From contig CAIIXF020000180.1 in the NCBI GenBank assembly GCA_903813345.2, positions 9,410 through 73,409 of the forward strand: 64,000 nucleotides of DNA. The letters are read 5' to 3'. Made by a program: the position numbers and the translations under genes. Each line of letters starts with the position of its first letter. Position 1 is the stretch's first letter. The DNA comes from Owenia fusiformis (taxonomy: Eukaryota; Annelida; Polychaeta; Sabellida; Oweniidae). Of this stretch, positions 2,828 through 57,163 are shown piece by piece. The notes beneath the pieces were generated by a model. It was not told where the DNA came from, did no database searches, and saw only the letters and a list, made by a program, of their open reading frames with translations.

Positions 2828-3596
2828 TTATTAGAGAATTTTCGTTTTTTAAAAACTTATACGTATACTTATACTTATAAACCCAATAAACAAGGTGTTT
2901 CATAATTTCCCAATTCGTCGGGAAATATCTCCTAGGACGGTAATAAAAAGGGCCAATGGCATACCATCCGTACCCCTTGATGTAAAGCATGTTTAGTTGT
3001 GTCATATGTGTTTTCTAGAATCAAATAGGCTGATATATATTTTTTGTAGATGATCGTTTTTAATCACCTTGTAGAAATAACGAAGGGAGAATTAGTTCAG
3101 CTAATGAATGAGTCGAGCTATTTGATTGGATACTATGCCTATTCAGCCGATTAATTTTAATAAGCCATTCTGGTCAGTAGGTCCACACATATACTATGCG
3201 GAGATCCAACTCTGTAAGTTTATAATCAGCGTATAAAGGCCCTTTTATACGTAAAAACTGAAAAATTGACCTTATAATTTCATGAGAACTTTGAAATGAT
3301 CGACTCGTTCGTGTAGTGATTCACTTTAAAGGGTCTTGTTTATCGTACACTACAAGGACCCGTCAACTAGAATTTAGTTTATCGTGTTCATAATTGACAC
3401 TAGCAAAGGACATTGTATTCGCAGTCCCTAGTTGATGATGATTCGATGAAGCTTGACTATATCGGGAATAGTTATGCCCCACTTGGTACAGATTATGAAA
3501 ATCAATTTGAATTGATTTTAGTTCGACAAGACCCTTTAAACTATAAGTATACGTATAAGTTTTTGAAACAACTTATAACGAAAATTCTCTATTATC
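2828..3596. repeat. Inverted-repeat element
   Basis: The left arm (2828-2880, with TAGAGAATTTTCG and ACTTATACGTATACTTATA) recurs inverted at 3541-3596. The inner part 3326-3540 is related, in opposite orientation, to 15125-15375, including the TTTAAAGGGTC ends. This suggests an old dispersed non-autonomous element. Boundaries are approximate. Confidence 0.55.
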
Positions 3597-18421: not shown

Positions 18422-21057
18422 CACTGGGGAGTATCGTGATGCAACAACACCGTGTTGTTGCATCAAGATGGCCAGACTTCCGGTGATAGATTTTCGTACG
18501 ATATTTTGTTTCCCCAATATAAACCCATTTCTAGGACGAGTTGCTCAATAACCATACACGTGCAGTTAGCGCACGATCTATATTTAAAGAAACTGTCATT
18601 AGTATACATGTACCATCACCAAGAAGCAATAAGTTCACGGTTTTAGTTTCTCACTATTGATGCAACAACACCAAACTGAAGATGCAACAACACTCCTCTA
18701 GATTTGAGCAATGATGCAGCAACACCAATTAATAGTATAATTTCAGAAGACCATAAATCTCGAGAGGAACAGATTTTTAAATGCTACTATTGCAACACCG
18801 TTACCCATTACCCATATTTGCGTTCTTTCCAAGGCATTCAAAATACACGTCCTGCGGGCGAAGATCCTTTATATGTATTTTCAAAAATGTATACTTTTAA
18901 ATATTATAATGTACTGGACGTTGTTCTATAATATAGTTTAATCGCCTTTAACATGACATGACAAACATCTTTATTTCCTCCAATTTGGAGAGCAAACGTG
19001 TAAAAACGTCTAATTGACTTTATTAGAGAGGCCGTTTAGTTACACGTTTAATGGAAATCTTGCACGACGCACATGTAGAATTATTGCTCTCTTTGGATTC
19101 CTTCTCTCCGACTGAGTAAAAAGGTAAACAAAATTGATAAGATTAAGGGCCCAAAAAGGTAAATTGATAGGGGTACAGTTATCCCAGATATTCCGGGCCC
19201 TCGGGAAATATCATATTGTCTCTCATCCTATACAACTCTTGAGAACGATGTATAACTCCTGGATAGCATAAACTCCTGAGCAGCGTATACAACTCTTCAA
19301 CTTGATATATGACATCATTCTTTGGGTGGGATAACAAAGGATATACAATATACAATTGTAGACCTCTCTTGAGGTCAACTGGCAAAATTGTATACCGATA
19401 CTGTAATCCTTGAAAGTTCGGAGGTCGAGGTCAACAGTACTCTCAGGGTTTACTGTTGAGTTATACACTTTGGCCAGTTGACCGAATAGAGAGGTTAACA
19501 ATTGTTTGTTAGTCCGAAGAATATAATAATTTGAAGGATATAATATACATTTGTAGACCTCTCTTAAGGTCAACTGGCAAAATTGTATACCGATATTGTA
19601 AACCTTGAAAGCACTGTTGATCAAGACCAGAGGTCGAGGACACTTTTGCCAGTTGACCGAAAAGAGAGCTTAACAATTGTTCTGTTAGTCCAAATAATAT
19701 AATAATTGGACGAATATATAATCGAATATCACGTGAACATATTTGATAAGTAAAGGTATCATATTTTAGCAAAAAATCCCCAAACCGTCGAATACTTGTA
19801 ATTTTTTACACAACTTATTTTTTTCAAAATTAAAAGAAATTCAACATTAAAAAACAATTTTTCAAAAATAGCGGTCAACAGTACCTAGTAGTGGTCAACA
19901 GTTTACAATTGTTAACCTCCTCAGATGTCAAGGTTTACAGTCGAGGTATATGATTTTGACGGTTGATCGAATGGAGAGGTCTACAATTGTTTTGTTAGTC
20001 CGAGTAAACTTATAATACACATAAAGGCGACAATCATCAATCGGCATGGCTTCATTTCACAACCTTTTCTCCGAACCACGTTAGCAATATTTTTTTAGAA
20101 AATCTGGAGACAGTGCATCGCGGCGTACTCGTTAGTGAATTAATGTTAATTTTAAGTTTCTATTTGTATTTTTTGCTATACTTGTCGCCTAGTAAAGTCA
20201 TTTTCATCAACGTTTACAAAATGTCCGTCTTCCATGTTTTTTTGTGACGTCATGAAACTTTTTTTTCAGAAGTAGCGGTCAACAGTACCTAGTAGCGGTC
20301 AACAGTACATAATTTTGACCGCTAATCAACCAATCAGAATCGAGTATTTCAGTTGAGGTACTAACAATACATTTTGTTGACCGCTAATCAACCAATCAGA
20401 ATTGAGTATTTCAATTGAGGTACCAACAACACAAAATGACTGATATCTGTTGTCTTTCCAAAATTATATTAGTTATTTGTAAACAATTTCCATACGGTAA
20501 ATCAAAGGCATTTAATTTAGAAAATGTATAATCTTTATTTTTCAGATACAATATCAATGAGATTGCCTCCCGGGGATTCAGTGCTTTATTTAGTTTGCCT
20601 TATATATCCTTCTAACTTTGATATAGACAAAGAAACCAAACAAAATACGTTTCGTCATGGACCACTGACTCACGCGTTTTATTCATGTACCGACCAACAC
20701 CTGTAAACAGAACATAAAACAGTTTCTCTTGTTGTTCAATGATACATTATATTGGCGTTTTTGCATCATCACATTGGTGTTGTTGCATCATCGATAAGAA
20801 ACAGAGTGGTGTTGTTGCATCAATAGTGAGGAATTAAAACCACGAATTTGTCGCTTCTTGATGATGCTACATGTAAACCAATGACAGTTTTTTAAAATAT
20901 AGATTATGCGCTAACTGCATGTGTATGATTATTGAGCAACTCGTCCTAGAAATGGGTGTAAATTGGGGAAAAAAACATCGTACGAAAATCTATCACCGGA
21001 AGTCTGGCCATCTTGATGCAACAACACGGTGTTGTTGCATCACGATACCCCCCAGTG
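18422..21057. mobile_element. 2.6-kb fold-back transposon with 5-bp target duplication
   Basis: The element starts CACTGGGGAGTATCGTGATG and ends with the inverse; CTACT flanks both sides (18417-18421 and 21058-21062). Arms of about 300 bases (18422-18730, 20755-21057) are highly similar. Each outer arm holds a 27-bp palindrome built from GATGCAACAACAC, and the same 13-mer recurs several more times further in (near 18660, 18680 and 18710). No transposase is present. A lone, diverged arm lies at 29597-29715. Confidence 0.85.
19340..20430. repeat. Internal tandem duplications of the fold-back element
   Basis: A block around GAGGTCAACTGGCAAAATTG is present at about 19360-19500 and 19550-19690, with a weaker third copy near 19900-20000. 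Further on, GCGGTCAACAGTACCTAGTA and ACCGCTAATCAACCAATCAG each occur twice (20270-20420). Minus-strand frames of 68-133 codons here are translations of the duplicated block, not a supported gene. Confidence 0.6.
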
Positions 21058-21288
21058 CTACTGCTTGGTTTAGCTTTGGATCACCTTGATATCATCAGTG
21101 AAATACAACGATTAACTTATTTATATTGATACAGTATATAACATACTGAGATTTCTCTTAAAATCCCATGAGTACACAACACATTTCAATTTGCCTAGGA
21201 TGCTTTAATATATTTTTGTTCTAACTGAACAGCGTTTTGTGAAACATTGAAAAGTTTTAGTTTAATACTATAGAATTTAAAGTACAGC

Positions 21289-21430
21289 TCATTCGATGAT
21301 TTCATTTGATTCGTTATTATTGAAAATAGGCTCATGAACATCTTTTTCCTTATTCAACTCGATTCCATTATCGGAACGCCCTTCTGGGTTTCTTTCACTA
21401 CGATGCGATCGAAACCATCTGCAAACCAGA
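21289..21430 (-). pseudogene. Orphaned cytoplasmic-tail exon of the PAN-like receptor gene
   Basis: Starting from the insertion boundary the minus strand reads 45 codons, beginning VCRWFRSHRSER, then acidic and asparagine-rich sequence ending ESNEIIE, with a TGA at 21289-21291. If one AGA copy and the transposon (21431-25739) are removed, this reads straight on, in frame, from the membrane helix that ends at 25740. Its start (basic residues directly after a hydrophobic helix) is what a stop-transfer sequence should look like. It was therefore the 3' end of the last exon and is now cut off from its gene on this haplotype. Confidence 0.85.
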
Positions 21431-21888
21431 GGGGTAACTCCACTGAAAGTTCTTCCATAGGCCTACATATTAACATTTGGCTTGATTCTGAATAAACTAG
21501 GATTTTCGGTATATAGTCACATATACCATAGTGTAGCTCTATATGTCCCCTTTCAAACAAGAAAAGAAAAACAGTAGAACACCCATGGAATTAAAAAGTT
21601 CTTACCAGTTTTCCCCGCCATCTATTGAAAATTTGCAAATTTCTCACTAGATTTCCAACTCTAGACCACCACAACAAGAACTAAAATATTTTTGTTCTGC
21701 CATAAAATGTCGACATAATTTTTATTAAAATATGAACATATAACATAAATAAAGTTTCATGCCAGATCTCGACTTTTTCACTCATAATGGCACTGATTTA
21801 CATTGATTTTCGGCAACCATCATCCCAATTTTAAATATAGATTTTTTGTCTTCTACCTTTTTCACAGCGCCATCTGTGGAGTTATCCC
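21431..21888. repeat. 458-bp direct terminal repeat, left copy
   Basis: Identical base for base to 25282-25739, same orientation, 3851 bases apart. It begins GGGGTAACTCCAC and ends GTGGAGTTATCCC, so each repeat is itself a small inverted-end unit. It is not LTR-like: no TG..CA ends, and no primer-binding or polypurine tract next to it. Confidence 0.95.
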
Positions 21889-22683
21889 TACTAGTGCCCA
21901 CTTATAGCTACCACACCTTAAATTTACCTCATTCTCTATCACTGGCTCTTTTTTCAGTAGAACACAGCAAACCGTTCCCCTTTTCCACAAATATATGCTG
22001 AGATATGGGGTTTTGAAGTTACTAACCTAAAATGACAACACTTCCCAAGAATACAATGTCAGGCTTAGATATATACTGGTTGGCTTGGTTTCTGGTGGAC
22101 CATGGATTGGCTATAACTTGCTATGTCAGCTGCTCCCAAGGTATGATGACTCCTATATATGCGTGTGATCTGAAAATAATAATTAAAATTCAATTAATTA
22201 ACATAATTAATTTATGCGCATAATTAATTAGGCGCAGTGTATTTTCTAAGTAAAATTTGCTTTGTCAGCATATTTTGGGATAATTAATCCATTATCTTAT
22301 TCAAACAAAGTTTATACACAACTGATATTATCTTAACAATTAAATGATACCATTAGATAACATGGAAATATTCTAAATCTGATAGCAGAGACATCTTTTA
22401 AACCTATAAAAACCTGATTTCAACATAGTATCTTACTGTTCTAGCATATGTTTTATGTAAGCATTAATTATAACCTATCATGCGACAAAACCAATTTATC
22501 CGCGTCGCCACTCTGATAAAAATTCAACATTCTTTCCATTTTTGTTGGACATTAAACAAAAAATATATAAAACACTGGTCATTCTGAAGCTAGCTTCTAA
22601 CAAAGACACACTGCTCTAAGATTCTGTTCAATCTACAACTTTGTCTAAGTTTTGGATATTTAATTCTTTAAACAGGTCAAAGA

Positions 22684-24747
22684 ATGAAGGGAAAAGGAAA
22701 GTCAGGCCATTCTAAATATGCAAATGCTAAATCATTTAAGCGGCATCATAAACGTCATGAAATACCTCAGGAAGAGTTTGAGATTGAGCCACCTTTAAAA
22801 ATCATGAGATTGAGTGAGACCAATCATAAGCTGGTTGTGAAGGAAAAGCAAGGAAAATATGAACTTGCTGATATTCATGGTAAACAATGTAGGGCTATGC
22901 TGTTACGGCCAAAGAAAGATGATCATTTACCACTTCATGAGCAGTATGGAACATCAAACCCAACCTCACCCCCAGATGAGGCCCTGATTGTGAGTCAGTT
23001 TTCCATGATCCACATGATGAATGAGGTTAATAGGGAGCATAGGGTTTATAATGAGGGTTGCATGGGCAACCTTTCCATTTATGAGAAAAAACCATTTGGA
23101 CTATGCTGGAGGATGAAATTGAAATGTGAGGTATGTCTATTTATTTCTGAAAATTACAAACTATATGAAGAAATTGAAGCAGAAGGAAGAAAAAGGGGTC
23201 CAAAACCAGCAAAAATAAATACACAGATTAATGTGGCACTTCTGAACAGTTCAATAGGTATTGAGCAATTCCGTACAATATTGGCTACGTGTAATATCAG
23301 ACCTCCAGCTGTATCAGGCATGCACAAAACAGCAGTAAAAGTGAGCTCACAAATTGAAAAAGTATTAGAAAATGATTTGAAGAATAGATGTGACAATCTT
23401 GTCAGATTAAATAAATTCAAGGGAGTTAAAGCATCTGAACAAAGCAAAATTTCAATTTCAACAGATGCAGCCTATGACAGCAATGTATATGGTGATAGAT
23501 CCAAGATGGGGCAAAATTCAACCAGAGCTTTTACAATAGCTGTTGAGAATCACACCCAAGCCCAGCAAGTCATAGGGTATTGCCTGCAGGTGAAACACTG
23601 TTGGAGAGGGGCTTATTTGAGAGCTTTAGGCCTTGATGTGCAATGCCCGGGCCATGAAAATTGCACTGCCAACAAGAACAAAGCCCATTCTTTTACAGAA
23701 TTTGAAATGGGTGGAGAAATTGCCAAACAACTCAAGGAGTGTAATTTAACAGTAGAATATTTAACCACTGATGGGGATGCCAAGGGGTCTCAAGGTGTAC
23801 AGGCGTATTACAAAGATAATAATATTGACCAAAATGTATCAAGATTAGGGGACCGTATTCACAAAGAACACCTACAATATAAGAAATGCCTGAAAGAAGA
23901 ATTTAGTAGGAAAATGTTTCCTGGAGCAACAAAGAAAGAAAGAAAAACAATACAGCAAGTATTTTCCAGAGATGTTAAAACGAGATGTAGCATACTTGTC
24001 CAAAAATATGCTCAACTTAACAATGACATTACATTAGCAATATCTACAATTGAAATGTTAGAAATTCAAAAATCCATTGTTAACTGTTACAATGGGTATC
24101 ATGAATCATGTAAGGTTTCTTTCAATGGGTGTAAAGGCCTTCCAGATAACAACTGGGTGTCTAACTCTGCAAATTTCAGAGCATGTAAATTAAAAAATGG
24201 GGATATCAAAATGACCACTGATGATTCTAAGCGCTTGATGATTTTATTAGGCTTGAGATTAGGACCAGAGGCCCTCTATGAGACTAGATTCAACACTCAT
24301 ACCAATACAAATGAATCAGCAAATAGTGTTGTCAATAAGGTATTACCAAAGAGGAACACTTATGGTGCCACAGCAGGTGGTAGAATATCATCAGCAATAC
24401 ACCAAATCAATAATGGACTAGGGGACAGTACTCACCTTAAGCTCCAATTTGTCCAGGCTCCGCTACCGGTTGGCTCTTCTGCTAGTGTGGCCCTAAAAAA
24501 GATGCAACAGAAGTCAGTTTACATAAAGAAATATAAAACATCAAGGAAAGCAAGGAGAAATAGACAGTTCCACAAACAATATCACATGAGAGAATATTTC
24601 AGAGCGAAAGAAGAAAAGAAAGCAATAGACTATCAGAAGAATCAACTCGATAAAACGACTCGATTAGAACACAATTACACAAAGAACAAGAAATCAAGAC
24701 CCAAGAGGCTGTCAAGGTATAGGGACCATGCATATGAGAAGAACTAG
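22684..24747 (+). CDS. Mutator-like DDE transposase
   Basis: A 687-residue uninterrupted frame. A basic N-terminus (KGKGKSGHSKY) is followed by a CxxC pair (C148, C151) in LKCEVCLFISENYKLY. An RNase-H-like core holds D261 (ISTDAAYD), a CPGHENC zinc-type insert (C321, H324, C327), D363 (LTTDGD) and FSRKMFPGATKKER. A candidate third acidic residue is E544 (NTNESAN). The order and spacing match the invertebrate family known as the Mutator-like transposase domain, from my knowledge of the family. The C-terminus is lysine/arginine-rich. The role is cutting and joining transposon ends in the nucleus. TATATAAAA lies about 115 bases upstream. A possible upstream exon (22032-22140, donor AAG/GTATGA; acceptor AAACAG at 22675) joins in phase, but MKG is a reasonable start without it. 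Confidence 0.85.
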   Translation: MKGKGKSGHSKYANAKSFKRHHKRHEIPQEEFEIEPPLKIMRLSETNHKLVVKEKQGKYELADIHGKQCRAMLLRPKKDDHLPLHEQYGTSNPTSPPDEALIVSQFSMIHMMNEVNREHRVYNEGCMGNLSIYEKKPFGLCWRMKLKCEVCLFISENYKLYEEIEAEGRKRGPKPAKINTQINVALLNSSIGIEQFRTILATCNIRPPAVSGMHKTAVKVSSQIEKVLENDLKNRCDNLVRLNKFKGVKASEQSKISISTDAAYDSNVYGDRSKMGQNSTRAFTIAVENHTQAQQVIGYCLQVKHCWRGAYLRALGLDVQCPGHENCTANKNKAHSFTEFEMGGEIAKQLKECNLTVEYLTTDGDAKGSQGVQAYYKDNNIDQNVSRLGDRIHKEHLQYKKCLKEEFSRKMFPGATKKERKTIQQVFSRDVKTRCSILVQKYAQLNNDITLAISTIEMLEIQKSIVNCYNGYHESCKVSFNGCKGLPDNNWVSNSANFRACKLKNGDIKMTTDDSKRLMILLGLRLGPEALYETRFNTHTNTNESANSVVNKVLPKRNTYGATAGGRISSAIHQINNGLGDSTHLKLQFVQAPLPVGSSASVALKKMQQKSVYIKKYKTSRKARRNRQFHKQYHMREYFRAKEEKKAIDYQKNQLDKTTRLEHNYTKNKKSRPKRLSRYRDHAYEKN

Positions 24748-24788
24748 ATGTACAGTATATAAGGTAGGCTTCTTATACTAAACTAACC

Positions 24789-25213
24789 TTACTCAACCTT
24801 CAGATCTAGTTTGCACATGGGATGGGGTTCATGTCCCTGACATTGGTTCATGTGAACGCAACTCTTGCGAGAATTGTTCACCCAATGGGGCTCCAGTGAT
24901 AGGTGGCCTATGACAACACAATTCTTATTGAGGCATATATGGGATATATCATCTGTACACCTGATCAATGCAGGGTTGTACATCATAAATGCCAGTCTAT
25001 GAACCAATGACACAGACTTTTTATCTTCATTTGGCCACCTAACACTCACCTGCTTGTATCCATCAGGCCTCAATGAGCCCCCATCCCATAACCAACACAC
25101 ACCATTGGCACTAGGCCTTATATTTCTTCTAAGGCGTTCTTGTTGGTGGTTACACCAGTCATCTACTACTCCAGAAAAGAATGAGGTGTAAAGTGATTAG
25201 CTATATCAGGCAT
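24789..25213 (-). CDS. I-PpoI-like His-Me zinc-loop endonuclease
   Basis: The clear frame runs from a TAA at about 25192 to 24789 and has no internal ATG at its start. It reads VCWLWDGG, GYKQVSVRW, LVHRLAFMMYNP, then SHICLNKNCVVIGHLSLEPH and a CxxxxxC-GH-C cluster. The spacing H-x-C-x4-C-x4-H, then N nine residues on and C fifteen on, equals His98, Cys100, Cys105, His110, Asn119 and Cys125 of I-PpoI. The second zinc cluster differs slightly. An ATG at 25213 (MPDIANHF) is one base out of frame, with the shift near a T run at about 25174-25180. The gene is therefore either frameshifted, or starts differently. It converges on the transposase with a 41-base gap. It is a probable DNA-cleaving partner, function inferred. 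Confidence 0.75.
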
Positions 25214-25281
25214 AAAATGTAAAAGAACAAGATATATTTTGAAAAAAAGTTTTTTTTAATTTTTCGAAATGGGCGATAATA

Positions 25282-25739
25282 GGGGTAACTCCACTGAAAG
25301 TTCTTCCATAGGCCTACATATTAACATTTGGCTTGATTCTGAATAAACTAGGATTTTCGGTATATAGTCACATATACCATAGTGTAGCTCTATATGTCCC
25401 CTTTCAAACAAGAAAAGAAAAACAGTAGAACACCCATGGAATTAAAAAGTTCTTACCAGTTTTCCCCGCCATCTATTGAAAATTTGCAAATTTCTCACTA
25501 GATTTCCAACTCTAGACCACCACAACAAGAACTAAAATATTTTTGTTCTGCCATAAAATGTCGACATAATTTTTATTAAAATATGAACATATAACATAAA
25601 TAAAGTTTCATGCCAGATCTCGACTTTTTCACTCATAATGGCACTGATTTACATTGATTTTCGGCAACCATCATCCCAATTTTAAATATAGATTTTTTGT
25701 CTTCTACCTTTTTCACAGCGCCATCTGTGGAGTTATCCC
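25282..25739. repeat. 458-bp direct terminal repeat, right copy
   Basis: Identical to 21431-21888. Read on the minus strand it supplies the premature TAA (25733-25735) to the receptor gene and, about 155 bases further, an AATAAA (complement of 25572-25577) that could polyadenylate the truncated message. Confidence 0.95.
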
Positions 25740-27111
25740 AGAGCTACTATACACACAATATGAATTGCTACACTAAAACAAAGAAATACTATTAGAAGCA
25801 GTTCCGCAGGGGGATTGAACTCCAAAAGACAAGTATCTTCCGTATTATCATGAGAAGTTTCGTTCGTAATATTATGACAAATCTCAGATGAGTCTACGGT
25901 TAGAGCTGCCAATGTGGCATCACTGTATAACCCATAGACACTAAAGCCAGTCGGATCATAAGAGAAGTTGAAGTTGTAGTCACCATTCGAATTATCTTTA
26001 GAACATATTCTAATTTCGCATACAACTGTAGAATTATCTCTGCAGTAGTTGATTACATTGTAGCCCTCTTTACATGCGGATATCATACACTGCCTTAAAT
26101 CTCTAACATCAATTTTCTTAAATACATTGCATGTTGACTTTTTGCATTGGTGTCCCACGGTTATTCGTGTAAATATGTCAGTTTTGCAATTTGGCGTTCC
26201 AGGATAGGGTAGACTCCACCATTGTATGTCTTGCTGCTCCTCGTTTTCACAAATATCATTCTGATTATAATACGACCAATCTGTACCTTCACTATTGCTT
26301 TTACACTTAAATGCAAGGTTTGCTTTATGTTTCGTTACATACAATATAGAAGTGTAGCCTGATTCGTACAAAGATGTTGGAATTGGTTGGTCTGTACTTG
26401 AAAAGTAACTATCTATTTCGTCACATTTCTCGGGAGTAGGTCTCGACGGTAATGATAATGCAGATGAAAGAGTTTTGTTAAGAATAAGCTTCGTTTTGAA
26501 TGTATGTCCAAGGCTGTAAGAACGACAGTTAGCATTATTGTCTTCGACAACAGATAAGCTGAGCTGATAATCGTCATTAGGAGCATGCCAGTTACAATAT
26601 TTCATTTCACAATCAAACTCGTTGCTTTCATGAGAAATGATATTAAAGACATTTGCATTGTTTTCACAAGATTTTACCATACAATCATATAAGTTTTGCA
26701 CTTTTAAATTACCAACGATAGAGCAGGAGGATTTTACAGCTTTCTTAGTCTCCCACGTTCTTCTCATGAAATACGAGTTATGACACCTTGGAGAATAGGA
26801 GTGCGGTCGGGCATATGTTATACCCATCGAATCATTCACATTCGGAGCTCGTGACTTCCAATTGTAATTCCAGTCCGTTCCATCAGAGTTGGGTAAACAT
26901 TCAAAAAGTTCACATCTATTTTTGTATTGATTATACATTATGACGTTTGTTTCCTTTGCCAAACAAGATTGCTTGAGACACTGATGTAATGTCACCGATG
27001 CATGTGCAGAGCGAAACGCAAGCTTCAAGTCACAACCTGGTGCCATCGGCATAGCTTCGTCAAATGTGTTAAGAGTCCTTACTTTTAGAAAGTTCTCGAC
27101 GTAACAGTTAT
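25733..27111 (-). CDS. PAN/apple-like membrane receptor, exon 2 (3'-truncated)
   Basis: An acceptor (TTTTTTCAG) ends at 27112 and enters the frame in the phase left by exon 1. The exon encodes about 459 residues. Four cysteine-rich segments share a pattern of CL/CM..SC, a short loop and C-E-L/M/I..C: TLHQCLKQSC..CELFEC, NLYDCMVKSC..CEMKYC, a weaker third, and DLRQCMISAC..CEIRIC. I read them as PAN/apple-like folds. Several N-glycosylation sites occur. A transmembrane helix (ELLLIVFLCFSVAIHIVCIV) lies at the end, then ALG and a stop supplied by the transposon. The likely role is a cell-surface adhesion or recognition protein; ligand unknown. The family assignment is tentative; the membrane topology is firmer. 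Confidence 0.75.
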
Positions 27112-33925: not shown

Positions 33926-36900
33926 TCACAAGACATCAACACTTGAATCATCTTCATCAGGATCATTCCCAATTGCCTGGATGTTGGAACAATCGCCCTG
34001 ATCATGACAGGCACATATTGGAATGCAAGTAAGTCCTGCAGCCAGACAGGGGCACTTTCGTGCAACATTACAGTTTGCGTCCTTGCAATAAAGATGTGTA
34101 ACATCCCTCAATTCAATTGGAGCGGGGTCTTTGGTGATCATTACAGGCATCATTTTCCCATCGACTATTTTCCATCCATTTCCAACTGGGTCCCACAAAT
34201 CTGGTTTGGCAATATGACTGGAAAGCCAAATCTGAAGTTGAATCTGACACCTTTGTACATGTTGCTTGAATGCATCTTCTGTTGGTGGAAGACTTGATGC
34301 TGGTTTATCTGTTGTAGAAGCCAACACAAAACGGAGGTCGTCTAATGTCATAGTTGCATTTGTTTTCTTTCCTGTCACACAATACATTGACAGAATGAAC
34401 TGCCTAGCGAAACTTTGGAATTTAATTTGGTCTTCAAATGCAGAAAGGCCAACCAGTGATGTGTGATTTTTCTGCAGTTTGGCAAAGGCAGTTCTCTTGC
34501 CAATTCTATGCAATGCGCAGGTTGTGTCCGATCCTGTGAGCACGTGAACTGCAGGAAGTAGTCGACAAATACCTTCACCAAGTCCATTTGCAATTGTATG
34601 AATGGGGATATATCGCTCCTTGTTTGCACGTCCAGTGTGCATAAAAACTTCAAGACTGTCTGTCAAATATGGAGTCTGAAAGTAATGCACTAGAAGGACA
34701 AATACATCTGTGTCATCACACTTGACAATAATACGCTGGTGCTGTTTTGCATTTTCAATAGTGTGTAGAATGAGTATTGTATCAGCCTCTTCATGACTAC
34801 ATGCAAGATGGGGGAGGTATTGATCACCGTTTGCTGTCAGCTTTAAAATTTTGTCTTTGTCTCGGAAACCACCGGCAAGAACTACACTCTGTCCCTTTTT
34901 GAGGTATTGAGGAGTTATGACCACTAGCATTTCACAAATGAAGTTAGCAAGATTTGCTTTATTCGCTGGATTCTTCAAGAATCTTCTAAAGTTAGGCACA
35001 TTCCTTCCAGCAGCAATTATATGGGTAGTTGAGTCATCATTGTTGCTGCGTCTCTCACGTTCAGCAAATTTGATAGATTTGGTATTATCATATCTATCAA
35101 ATACAACTGTTAGTGCATCAGTACTGCCCTTAAGAAACTTGAGGATTCTCCTTAAAACTGCATCCACCAGTTCCTCATAAGTCTTGAAAAGTTTTTCATT
35201 CATCGACTGCAGCAGAGCCATCCCATCAAAGATGTAACTACTACTTCCTTCTTTAAGGTCTTCCAAAACTTCTGTCACTCCGGCATATGATTCCAGTCTC
35301 TTTGCTAATTCACACTTAGCAGTTTTTCTCATTGTTCCATCATCATTGAACAATGAAGGTGGCACTGTAGTGAGCTCATGCTTCAGCACTTGTTGTAAAT
35401 CTACATCACGATCCTTTGAAACCAAAAGCAATCTTCTAAATAAAACCTCAGATTCTATGGCAATCCTTTTTCCAGCAACGGTAATGGTAGTTTTCTTTGT
35501 GTCTGAAAAGGTTTTTATGCCAAGTCTTTTATCTGGATCCCAAAAGTGTGCTGTATCTTCCAAGAGCCGGTGTACTATGAACTTTTCTTGGTGTTTCTTG
35601 GCCCTGTCGAGACATTCAGTTAGATCCTTTTCAATCTCAAGGGGTGCTATTTGGCCCGTTCCTATGTTAATTAGATTTGGTGGAACAGTCTCCATGTCAA
35701 AGGGATTTTGAAAAATGATAGTGATGGTTGACTTCATTTTTAGTAGGTCACTTTCATCTCTGGCCATTCTACTTTTTCCAATGTCACTGTGAATAGCCGT
35801 CATGCTAACTGGTACTGTAAGATTTTTCACTCTCTCAGCATATTCAGCAGTTATATGCCTGGTCACAAGCCATCTGATAAGTGCACTCTTAGATCGTGTG
35901 AAACCTATGATTCCTCCTGAGCTTTTTGCTTCCTTGTTAATTGTTTGCTCGAGTGCCTGATCTGTTGGGACACAATTGAAACGGGTCGAGTCTGATCGTC
36001 TTACAACAAATCCACCTTCCCTCATATGTTTGTATGATTCAGGGTGAAGGTTTTCTAGTTGTTTCATTTCCAGGACATAAATAGGTGTATATCTTGCATA
36101 ATTTATTTTTCCTGCTGCAAAAAACCAGGGAATTGCTTCAGCAATCGAATCAAGATGGAGTTGAAAATTTGCCAAACGGTCAGCTCTGAGGATTCTAAAT
36201 AAGATTTCACACCCTTCGAGGAAAGTAGCCCAGTATTCAAATGTTTTTGATCTTTGTCTTCCTTCTCTTTTAAATAGTAAGAGCTTCTCATCAGTTGCTT
36301 TTATTTCCTGTTCCATATCTTCAATGAGCATTTTGACTCTGTCCAGTTGACTCTCATGAAAAGCTATCTCTAGACGTTGAAGAAGATCTTTCAGTTTTTC
36401 AGATAGCAGAGCTTCATCCTTTTCTGCATACCATGCCTCTGCCGACTCTATATTTAGTCTAGAAAGTGCTTCGTAAGCTAGTTTGAGTCCCCTTATTCCT
36501 CTGTCTAAGTGTTTACCTTGTAGCATTTGTTTGGCACTTGCTGGTGCAAAAACATCTGATTCTGTTAAAATATGGAGTAGCCCACCATCAGCAAAAAGCT
36601 TTCCAATACTTGCAATAAGCGCCATTTGTAGGTGCATTACACCAAGTCTCATTGTAACCTTACCATTCAAAGCTTCTGGGTGACTCCACAATATTTGCTG
36701 GGCCTTACTGTAGATTGCCAGATCTGCAGTGACAAGTATGTGTTCTTGCTGAAGACTGGGAGCAATGTTGGCCAGTACTAATAGTGCTGTATATATGGTT
36801 GATAAATCACTTGGTGATGCATTAATGAAAGGCAGGTACCTAATTATAGATGTTGGGATACTGTGCTCTTCTAAGGCTGCTATAAACCCAGCCCATGCTG

Positions 36901-38785
36901 GGATATTTTGTTGTTTGTCTTGGTTAATCATCCTTAGTAGTTTCCAAACTGAGTCAGATCTTTTTGCTTCCAATATTGCTGCTGTTGGTTTGTCTTGCAT
37001 AATATCAGCAACATCTGAGATAGGGCCAGGGTTTGATCTTTTGGGGGGTTTGATATATTTTGATAGTGTTTGATCCTCATATTTGTTAATATCTTGAGTG
37101 CTCAACGACTTGCTAGATTGACATGGTATGCTTGTTCCCTCACCTTTCAGTTGGCATTTCTTTTGATAAAGTACCATTGCCATTGAGTGTGTACTGTTTT
37201 TGCCATCCAACGTATCTTCATTCTGGTCAAAGTTATCAATTGATGCGTCCACATGTCCAACTGTATCCTTATCTGGTATTTGGATGCCACTTGGTACATA
37301 AATATCTGATCTTCCTATCTCTGTCTTTGCAGCTGATGTTGTAAAAGCTCTAATTTCACTGTAGGAAGTGCAAAACCCAAATGCATTCAGACAATCTATG
37401 AGTTGTTTACTACCATGGTCATGTTGAAGCTTTATTCCAAGCGCCATTGATAATGGAGTCCAAGCATTTCTTGACAAAGCTATTATGCAATGGCAGATAC
37501 TGACAACCTTCATATCAAACTTCTTTGGATTTGTACCAGTACCCTCGTTTATGCGACTTACATCTTTAAATGAACTTTCATTTGTACACCATGTCACAAA
37601 ATCATAAAGCAACTCGGGAATAAATGTAGCACATGCTTCTTTATTGATACTCGTGCTAGAAGGATATACAGACTTTCCTTTTGGCAGCTCAATCTCGGCA
37701 ATGGCCCCTCGCAGAATGCATGCAGCATTATGGAGCACATGATGTGGTTCCTCCATTGTTTGATCAAGAACTGGTTCTTCCTCAAGTAGGGCATCTTCAT
37801 CCTTTATTGCATTAGCTTTGAGGAGTGCTTCTCTTACAGTTAAATTGCCAGGGCAAACAATACTTGGCTGATTTGGTCTTTCAATGAATTCAATCCTGTC
37901 ACCAAACCAATTTTTCAATCGATTCTTCAGTTTCAAAGTCCTATATTCTTCAGCATTTTCAATGCCTTTGTCTTTTAAAGCCTTGATGAACATGTTATGT
38001 AGGTGCTTTGAACTGAGAACTTCAGCCTTCTTGGACAACACCGTCTTCTCAACATATGCAATTATTTCCTCGAAGGCCAAGTCATAATCAGAACCTGGGG
38101 ATGTTGACTGTTTATTGATTGCTGCTTTTATATTACGTATATTTACATAACGTGAGTAACAAGTCCTATGATATTGGGCATCACATGCAAATAAATCAGT
38201 ATGGGCAGTCAACCGCCCAACCATCAGGTTATCATTTCTTTCATTGGCAGCTGTGAGTATTCTTTGCCTTGTGCTCTCCCCCTCATTAGTTGTAATTTTT
38301 GTAAGTGGGTATTTACGTGTTGATGTTTTGCTACACCCACTGATACATTGGTAAAACATACAACAATTTTCATTTATTTTGAAATTCTTATGAACCCTAT
38401 CAGACTGACGAATTGAACTTGAGGTAGACGCCGTCTGATCTTCAGGCAAGGTATTTTGAAATACTGGGGGAATGTTACTTTTACTAGTATAGCGTGACCT
38501 GCACCCATAATGAAATGATACATATATTTTTTGACTTAAAATGTCATTTCTAAACGGAAGCAAATTGTCATATACTTCGTCTTTGTACAACGTTGCATAG
38601 TTTATAATTGATAATAGGCCTTCTGTCTTAGGGGTTTTCACAAAGGGGCCCTTTATTTTATTTTTCAATGACTGCATGCATATAATACAGTTTTTAGGAT
38701 TAGGTGGAGCTGGCTTCATCTTTTTTGGAACTTGCTCTGTCTCAGGGTCACTCATTGTGCTAGAATTGCCACACCCAAGATCCAT
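33926..38785 (-). CDS. Academ-like transposase with XPG/PIN-type nuclease
   Basis: A 1619-residue uninterrupted frame. The N-terminal Cys/His zinc-type region includes CIICMQSL (C33, C36). Residues 517-528 read DNFDQNEDTLDG, a hallmark of this invertebrate family. A DDE-like core follows: D688 (TADLAIYSKAQ), MRLGVMHLQM with H718, SIGKLFADGG and E742 (LTESDVFAP), then QGKHLDRGIRG. Residues 1185-1425 look like an XPG/PIN nuclease: FDGMALLQ, VVFDRYDNTKSIK, HEEADTILILH, KCDDTDVFVLL and LTGSDTT give the acidic set. The C-terminus (about 1570-1605) is a CXC-type cluster, CNVARKCPCLAAGLTC then CACH..DCSN. Intactness suggests recent activity. The role is transposition in the nucleus. The superfamily name is my inference. 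Confidence 0.75.
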   Translation of the reverse strand: MDLGCGNSSTMSDPETEQVPKKMKPAPPNPKNCIICMQSLKNKIKGPFVKTPKTEGLLSIINYATLYKDEVYDNLLPFRNDILSQKIYVSFHYGCRSRYTSKSNIPPVFQNTLPEDQTASTSSSIRQSDRVHKNFKINENCCMFYQCISGCSKTSTRKYPLTKITTNEGESTRQRILTAANERNDNLMVGRLTAHTDLFACDAQYHRTCYSRYVNIRNIKAAINKQSTSPGSDYDLAFEEIIAYVEKTVLSKKAEVLSSKHLHNMFIKALKDKGIENAEEYRTLKLKNRLKNWFGDRIEFIERPNQPSIVCPGNLTVREALLKANAIKDEDALLEEEPVLDQTMEEPHHVLHNAACILRGAIAEIELPKGKSVYPSSTSINKEACATFIPELLYDFVTWCTNESSFKDVSRINEGTGTNPKKFDMKVVSICHCIIALSRNAWTPLSMALGIKLQHDHGSKQLIDCLNAFGFCTSYSEIRAFTTSAAKTEIGRSDIYVPSGIQIPDKDTVGHVDASIDNFDQNEDTLDGKNSTHSMAMVLYQKKCQLKGEGTSIPCQSSKSLSTQDINKYEDQTLSKYIKPPKRSNPGPISDVADIMQDKPTAAILEAKRSDSVWKLLRMINQDKQQNIPAWAGFIAALEEHSIPTSIIRYLPFINASPSDLSTIYTALLVLANIAPSLQQEHILVTADLAIYSKAQQILWSHPEALNGKVTMRLGVMHLQMALIASIGKLFADGGLLHILTESDVFAPASAKQMLQGKHLDRGIRGLKLAYEALSRLNIESAEAWYAEKDEALLSEKLKDLLQRLEIAFHESQLDRVKMLIEDMEQEIKATDEKLLLFKREGRQRSKTFEYWATFLEGCEILFRILRADRLANFQLHLDSIAEAIPWFFAAGKINYARYTPIYVLEMKQLENLHPESYKHMREGGFVVRRSDSTRFNCVPTDQALEQTINKEAKSSGGIIGFTRSKSALIRWLVTRHITAEYAERVKNLTVPVSMTAIHSDIGKSRMARDESDLLKMKSTITIIFQNPFDMETVPPNLINIGTGQIAPLEIEKDLTECLDRAKKHQEKFIVHRLLEDTAHFWDPDKRLGIKTFSDTKKTTITVAGKRIAIESEVLFRRLLLVSKDRDVDLQQVLKHELTTVPPSLFNDDGTMRKTAKCELAKRLESYAGVTEVLEDLKEGSSSYIFDGMALLQSMNEKLFKTYEELVDAVLRRILKFLKGSTDALTVVFDRYDNTKSIKFAERERRSNNDDSTTHIIAAGRNVPNFRRFLKNPANKANLANFICEMLVVITPQYLKKGQSVVLAGGFRDKDKILKLTANGDQYLPHLACSHEEADTILILHTIENAKQHQRIIVKCDDTDVFVLLVHYFQTPYLTDSLEVFMHTGRANKERYIPIHTIANGLGEGICRLLPAVHVLTGSDTTCALHRIGKRTAFAKLQKNHTSLVGLSAFEDQIKFQSFARQFILSMYCVTGKKTNATMTLDDLRFVLASTTDKPASSLPPTEDAFKQHVQRCQIQLQIWLSSHIAKPDLWDPVGNGWKIVDGKMMPVMITKDPAPIELRDVTHLYCKDANCNVARKCPCLAAGLTCIPICACHDQGDCSNIQAIGNDPDEDDSSVDVL

Positions 38786-56024: not shown

Positions 56025-57163
56025 GCTTCCTAGTCAACTCGTACCCAAGACAACTCGTACCCAAGACAACTTGTACCCAAGACAACTCGTACCCAAGTCA
56101 ACTGGTACCCAAGACAACTCGTACCCACGTTTATTTTCTGTATTATGGGTGCATATAAGAAAACAAATTGAGTCTGTGTCAAAATGTTTAATGTTATAAT
56201 GTGCCTCAACATTTTTTCTCAATTGATTAAGCAAAGCATTTTGTTTTAACTTGGATTACCTTTGAAGTGCTTTGAAGGGCTTGTTCTCAACTTTTTTACA
56301 ACAGTAACTTTTCAACAAATGAATCAAGCAATTAATTTAGCTTTAAGTGCATTCAGAGAAAATTAATAAGGGAACTTTAATCTGTTAATTTCTTTTCCAT
56401 TTTAAACTTAATTGGATTATATTTGAACAACAGTTTTACAGGGTTGAGTTGACTTGGGGTTGAGATTTACTGGGGTTGAGTTGACTTGGGGTTGAGTTGA
56501 CTTGGGGTTGAGTTTTACTGGGTTGAGTTGACTTTGGGTTGAGATGACCAGGAAGCTTTGAACACATGCATGCAAAGTGTATTATATCATGTATGAATAA
56601 GTATCAAAATAATATTTGATATTCATATTATTTAGAATATTTTTTATTGCTTAATTTTATGAAGGTGACTTCTTAGAATTATCATTCTTTAATCTGATAA
56701 TATGAAATCCTAAATAGATTATCTGTTTAATAAGAAATAGGCGCAAGTTTTGATAATCTTATATTTTTGATAATACCATATTTCAAGATGAATTAGATCT
56801 GATACTTGTTCGAAACACTCATTAACATACAAAAATACCACTAATATTGTGAACAATGATTATGAATATGTGGAATAAACATAAATCTCTTCCCCCGAAC
56901 ATCTAAATCTGTGACCAATATATTTGGTCACAAATTTCAATCGATTTCTTCCAAAAACTTTTCTACATACTTCAAACTATTCTGAACTGTATGTAACCAT
57001 TATAATATGTATATCTATACCCATTCCCAGCCCAACACTTGATTCAAAACAAAACATATACTTTGGTACAAGTTGTCTTAGGTACGAGTTGTCTTGGGTA
57101 CGAGATGTCTTGGGTACGATTGACTTGGGTACGAGTTGTCTTGGGTACGAGTTGACCAGTTAC
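56025..57163. mobile_element. 1.1-kb element with inverted minisatellite ends, 10-bp target duplication
   Basis: The left end is about six 16-base units (ACAACTCGTACCCAAG, 56030-56130); the right end is the same units inverted (57065-57159). In the centre a different but similar-looking array (TTGGGGTTGAGTTGAC, 56445-56550) occurs. CATTTAAAAG flanks the element on both sides (56015-56024, 57164-57173). A 10-bp duplication fits Mutator-type or IS4EU-type integration. No gene is inside. Confidence 0.75.

Follow-up and report, generated by a model that had tools for sequence, protein, structure and literature searches.

A KolobokP transposon in the annelid Owenia fusiformis, with a 17-unit relative that bears on how its long direct repeats move

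KolobokP is a lineage of the Kolobok superfamily, described by Kojima and Bao with 228 catalogued families (2022, Mob DNA 13:24; PMC9587614), that, according to its discoverers, has the build of a bacterial composite transposon and in this resembles no other DNA transposon. Each element carries two long terminal direct repeats (LTDRs) of about 450 or 660 bp, with inverted ends of their own (11-18 bp) and RR...YY termini, around an internal region (INT) with two genes, one on the direct strand for a DDD/E transposase and one on the complementary strand for an I-PpoI-like His-Me nuclease. The transposase has a characteristic signature, with a CCHC finger after the first D, a DxxH motif and a second finger before the E, and insertion duplicates 3-4 or 4-5 bp of no fixed sequence (PMC9587614). 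Solo LTDRs, multimers and INT-INT junctions missing a few base pairs led the same authors to a model of nuclease-induced recombination, and one-sided footprints led them to infer an LTDR circle like those of IS3 and IS256; how these elements keep two identical repeats while losing them singly was left as an open question (PMC9587614). Here, we analyze a 64,000-nucleotide window of the O. fusiformis genome (contig CAIIXF020000180.1, positions 9,410 to 73,409) that holds a composite element of this kind, together with its relatives elsewhere in the same genome.

The window element and its place in the KolobokP lineage

Window positions 21431-25739 form a complete 4309-bp insertion with the layout LTDR-INT-LTDR (458 + 3393 + 458 bp; Table 1). 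We read it as a complete and recent KolobokP copy that moves and recombines by the mechanism proposed below, and give this reading a probability of about 0.93. A preliminary description of the locus had reported identical 458-bp direct repeats, AGA on both sides, 13-bp inverted outer termini and two convergent frames with catalytic patterns, all of which our analysis bears out. The outer ends, GGGGTAACTCCACTGA and TCTGTGGAGTTATCCC, pair over 13 nt with a single mismatch at position 4 and can be extended to 16 nt at 88% complementarity. Each LTDR is separately bounded by this same 16-nt imperfect inverted repeat, with termini GG...CC, in agreement with the inverted LTDR ends of described KolobokP elements. 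A 3-bp match such as AGA would occur by chance at one site in 64 and is weak alone, and the duplication gains support from a related nonautonomous family, in which 14 of 16 untruncated insertions among the sites read have a perfect 3-bp duplication, although two of these 14 count only if a mutated terminal base is allowed. We found neither an allele nor an empty site that corresponds to the window insertion; its right flank is unique in the genome, and its left flank matches elsewhere solely through a high-copy repeat.

Table 1. Features of the composite element (window coordinates)
Feature	Positions	Strand	Details
Left target-site duplication	21428..21430	.	AGA, read from sequence
Left LTDR, 458 bp	21431..21888	+	100% identical to 25282-25739
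Outer left short inverted end	21431..21446	+	GGGGTAACTCCACTGA; 88% complementary to 25724-25739 and 21873-21889
INT, 3393 bp	21889..25281	+	enclosed by both LTDRs
INT 5' terminal motif	21889..21902	+	TACTAGTGCCCACT; inverted relative of the 3' motif
DDD/E transposase, 687 aa (ORF1)	22684-24747	+	Pfam PF20700 'Mutator-like transposase', E=2.9e-49
I-PpoI-like His-Me (His-Cys box) nuclease, conserved domain	24789-25100	-	PF05551 zf-His_Me_endon, E=4.5e-11
INT 3' terminal motif	25268..25281	-	TATTATCGCCCATT (minus-strand reading); candidate nuclease half-site
INT-end sequence			TATTATCGCCCA; candidate nuclease half-site
Right LTDR, 458 bp	25282..25739	+	identical to left LTDR
Outer right short inverted end	25724..25739	+	TCTGTGGAGTTATCCC; pairs with left end
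Right target-site duplication	25740..25742	.	AGA, read from sequence

The transposase and nuclease genes are the sole long frames within INT. The preliminary description called the transposase Mutator-like, as does Pfam, and the element does share the PF20700 label and a C/DxxH motif with Mutator/MuDR transposons (MULEs). The two differ in other respects: Mutator elements duplicate 8-11 bp, and the element studied here has a 3-bp duplication, which excludes a standard Mutator element, as well as 16-bp ends set inside direct repeats and a nuclease partner. The Pfam label reflects a wider relationship. The predicted protein instead carries a Kolobok-type signature (D261, C306/C321/H324/C327, D363, D390xxH393, C468/C476/C483 and E544) with the three KolobokP hallmarks: the first D is followed by a CCHC finger, DxxH is present, and a zinc finger precedes the E. 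These residues are invariant in five proteins, that of the window element and those of four relatives, and their putative roles are assigned by position; a search of the transposase profile against solved structures gave no match. Other Kolobok transposons have in common with this element the DDD/E transposase, DxxH, the zinc finger before the last E and 5'-RR/YY-3' termini, but they generate TTAA duplications and contain neither long direct repeats nor a His-Me nuclease (PMC9587614), whereas the duplications that we read are AGA, TAC, GAT, ATC and others.

A profile built from six nucleases of this type in the same genome, all of which match PF05551, matches I-PpoI structures in the Protein Data Bank (E=5e-7), and the aligned motif, SHLCHN...C...HL..E....N..R, conserves SHxC, the second zinc Cys, and the equivalents of H110, E114 and N119 of I-PpoI. 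I-PpoI itself resides on a group I intron, while the nuclease described here resides on a DNA transposon. Layout, duplications and transposase signature together file the window element under the KolobokP lineage of the Kolobok superfamily, with all defining features matching and no difference in kind. The likeness to bacterial composite transposons lies in terminal repeats that are able to move singly or as a unit; here the genes lie between the repeats rather than in them, and the lineage is unrelated. The preliminary description was thus right to see a distinct transposon type, but the novelty it implied does not stand: the layout, the gene pair, solo repeats, multimers and the nuclease-recombination model were all published in 2022 (PMC9587614).

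The combination of identical direct repeats with solo copies and short duplications is also what an element resembling a long terminal repeat (LTR) retrotransposon would show, its repeats having been copied through RNA. We consider this origin hardly credible at all, as the INT of the window element contains no reverse transcriptase or integrase frame, none was seen in the families read, and the ends are GG/CC with 16-bp inverted repeats rather than TG/CA.

Related families in the same genome

We compared the window element with its relatives across this one 498-Mb genome and examined five autonomous families. The preliminary description had held that the element would prove a chance assembly if other copies had no endonuclease or no direct repeats; all five families have LTDRs, a transposase and an opposite-strand nuclease frame. 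The gene pair, the direct-repeat layout and a short duplication of 3-4 bp all recur, as that description had anticipated. Full-length relatives were found, and the transposases of those examined are 26-53% identical to that of the window element. L032 (on contig C10) has a transposase 53% identical, 458-bp LTDRs that are identical within the copy, and a TAC duplication; L061 (C5) has a transposase 40% identical, a 459-bp LTDR and a GAT duplication; L034 (C11) has a 470-bp LTDR and a TTA duplication; and L063/L064 (C12/C6), with transposases 26-27% identical, have a 655-bp LTDR and the 4-bp duplications ATCT and ACAT. Duplications are therefore 3 bp long in the families with LTDRs of 458-470 bp and 4 bp long in the 655-bp family, and the LTDR lengths among the relatives (458, 459, 468, 470 and 655 bp) agree with the published KolobokP sizes. 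Two further loci, L062 and L065, showed no direct repeats. L065 (991-1359, on C9) has a His-Me nuclease frame with no recognized transposase match in the 4 kb read.

In the nonautonomous family the layout persists without the genes: a 468-bp repeat, about 75% identical to that of the window element, flanks an 862-bp interior. Drawn from the best 40 matches, and hence lower bounds, its counts among the sites read are at least eight solo LTDRs, at least eight monomers and at least one multimer. A multimer on C7 has unmatched 3-bp flanks (TTA/TAT), with a left flank that ends in ACTATTA, and its edge may be rearranged. The preliminary description had expected solo repeats; these are present in related families of this genome, but not for the window family itself, of which a single full copy was found. 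Solo LTDRs and multimers thus occur in the nonautonomous family and in that of C11 and C313 (see below). LTDRs within an element are up to 100% identical and those of the window and nonautonomous families about 75% identical to each other, a contrast that points to homogenization of paired repeats or to their recent common source.

These comparisons bear on the possibility that a MULE has come to lie by chance between two independently inserted miniature inverted-repeat transposable elements (MITEs). The Pfam label 'Mutator-like' would fit such an assembly, as would two properties of the 458-bp repeats, namely inverted ends of their own and solo occurrence in related families. Several diverged families, however, share the layout with near-identical repeats (100% within the copies on C10, C11 and C5), the duplications flank the whole unit rather than single repeats, and the INT ends are conserved exactly at the repeat boundary. 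A layout that recurs in diverged sequences is not chance, and its recurrence refutes the MULE-and-MITE reading, which we regard as very improbable.

A 17-unit multimer and the movement of the repeats

One relative is a multimer of the C11 (L034) family at C313:22303-84380, a single 62-kb insertion of 17 INT units with TTT duplicated at both outer edges. A paralogous empty site lies at C8:30166508-30166936, with flanks about 85% identical. The INT units differ at just 0-2 of 3300 bp, a sign of a young array. The 16 junctions inside it comprise seven of the form INT-LTDR-INT, eight INT-INT and one INT-LTDR-TATTA-LTDR-INT; apart from this double-LTDR junction, units are spaced at 3345 or 3820 bp, according to whether no LTDR or one LTDR lies between INTs. 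Intact LTDRs are flanked as GAC-TATTA-[LTDR]-TAATA-TTCAG, while INT-INT junctions read either GAC-TATTA-TTCAG (three) or GAC-TAATA-TTCAG (five), so that every INT-INT junction has lost the LTDR together with 5 bp. The two forms differ by the side on which the 5 bp were lost, with 3+2 splits equally possible in this TA-rich sequence, and whichever split is assumed, the 5 bp absent from the second form are the same as the spacer TATTA of the double-LTDR junction. Further arrays of this type occur on C418, C443 and C513; those on C418 and C443 each end in flank beside ATA, which is compatible with a second insertion. The INT-INT examples in the main text of the KolobokP description have two to four INTs and losses of 3-4 bp, compared with 17 units and 5 bp here, and that text shows neither an LTDR-5bp-LTDR junction nor a multimer with a 3-bp outer duplication and an empty site (PMC9587614).

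We propose that the short inverted ends of the LTDRs are where the transposase cuts, and that it inserts the unit as a whole, duplicating 3 bp; the end structure and the duplications show insertion as a unit, while the catalytic step is inferred. Each LTDR possesses both ends and could therefore also leave by itself, as a circle carrying 5 bp of flanking DNA. Such excision from a multimer would leave the INT-INT junctions with 5-bp losses that we observe, and the circle could return by recombination into another LTDR to give LTDR-5bp-LTDR. IS3 and IS256 circles, with their short flank-derived spacers, offer a mechanistic analogue. Homologous recombination between LTDRs would yield solo LTDRs and multimers, both of which are seen, and the I-PpoI-like nuclease most likely breaks DNA to start this recombination, which could in turn restore lost LTDRs and homogenize paired repeats. 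The published 'induced unequal crossover' model fits our data as well (PMC9587614).

Could homologous recombination alone, through unequal crossing over and slippage, have produced all the junctions with no LTDR excision or circle? Near-identical units in arrays recombine readily, and unequal crossing over accounts for both the LTDR-INT repeats and the solo LTDRs. It cannot, however, remove an LTDR exactly with 5 bp from either side, nor create LTDR-TATTA-LTDR, and similar one-sided footprints are known from Corbicula (PMC9587614). We therefore judge recombination alone to be unlikely.

Several observations weigh against the KolobokP copy and mechanism as we read them. The nuclease frame of the window element is open from about 25196 with no in-frame ATG ahead of its conserved domain, and GTA occupies the position at which the C11 relative has its start ATG, which together leave its start codon or an upstream exon uncertain; the activity of both proteins of the element is a prediction from their sequences. 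The LTDR circle is deduced from its products, and the circle itself was not observed. The LTDR-TATTA-LTDR junction occurs once, and a 5-bp target duplication beside a resident LTDR would look alike, although the outer duplications in the C11/C313 family are 3 bp. Independent LTDR excisions number at least two, not eight, as INT-INT copies may spread by unequal crossing over. Finally, C180 and C313 are apparently unplaced contigs, and long-read assembly of arrays can err.

INT ends, a candidate nuclease site and the surrounding sequence

Read inward from the 3' end of INT, the 14-bp motif is identical in L032 (14/14) and nearly so in L061 (13/14), while the 14 bp that follow match at just 4-7 positions among the same three elements, and at 5-7 between the window element and the two relatives. 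At the LTDR ends, the outermost 14 bp give pairwise matches of 5-10 among the three, so the INT 3' end is better conserved than the ends used for insertion; it goes unmentioned in the main text of the KolobokP description (PMC9587614). The INT 5' end is related to it, with 11 of its first 15 bp matching the reverse complement of the 3' end. In a comparison of six families, 51 of 90 positions are shared by the two ends (0 of 20000 shuffles), and outside the TANTA core, where 26 of 60 agree, the match is modest (228 of 20000 shuffles).

The conserved INT 3' block is a possible nuclease half-site. One tentative idea, which we think doubtful, is that the nuclease targets the LTDR-empty INT-INT joint built of conserved INT ends (TGGGCGATANTAGTG...CCCA). 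The LTDR would then split the INT-INT site in the way that a group I intron splits the site to which it homes: once an LTDR had left as a circle, the empty joint would be cut, and repair from an LTDR-bearing copy would restore the LTDR. There are about even odds that the motifs are transposase or regulatory sites and that the nuclease cuts elsewhere, either where LTDR ends abut or inside the LTDR itself, as the discoverers of KolobokP suggest (PMC9587614). The modest match outside the core favors this alternative, as does the palindrome formed when the window ends are joined without an LTDR, which is rough and, family by family, not significant (15 to 477 of 500 shuffles reach its score). Against it, neither outer element ends nor solo LTDRs contain the INT motifs, and both still have target duplications, so the transposase need not use these motifs. 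A separate candidate target, a 22-nt palindrome of 91% inside the window LTDR (AGAACTAAAATATTTTTGTTCT), was rejected, as other families have no equivalent conserved there.

The surrounding window holds several other features. A dispersed repeat at 20931-21066, present at 39 or more other places at 94-98% identity, contains a near-perfect hairpin (21010-21046). On the minus strand lies a 439-aa frame (25733-27052) that has no Pfam match and a hydrophobic stretch at its C-terminus. Its stop, TAA (25733-25735), belongs to the right inverted end of the transposon, which suggests that the insertion cut or capped a frame of the host. Farther away lie a single-exon open frame of 1619 aa (33926-38785, minus strand), without a Pfam match and possibly a gene of another mobile element, and clusters of 16-bp tandem repeats (56035-57156) in mutually inverted copies about 1 kb apart (CAACTCGTACCCAAGA and CTTGGGTACGAGTTGT).

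The window element itself is apparently an ordinary, recent copy, and its relatives in the genome add modest mechanistic clues on how LTDRs move. In the C313 array, both excision scars stand beside a possible reciprocal product, LTDR-TATTA-LTDR, which would add to the circle inference already made for KolobokP (PMC9587614). The conserved INT end, in turn, provides a concrete candidate target for the nuclease. If the homing idea is true, the nuclease would maintain the composite structure of these transposons by 'homing' the repeat.

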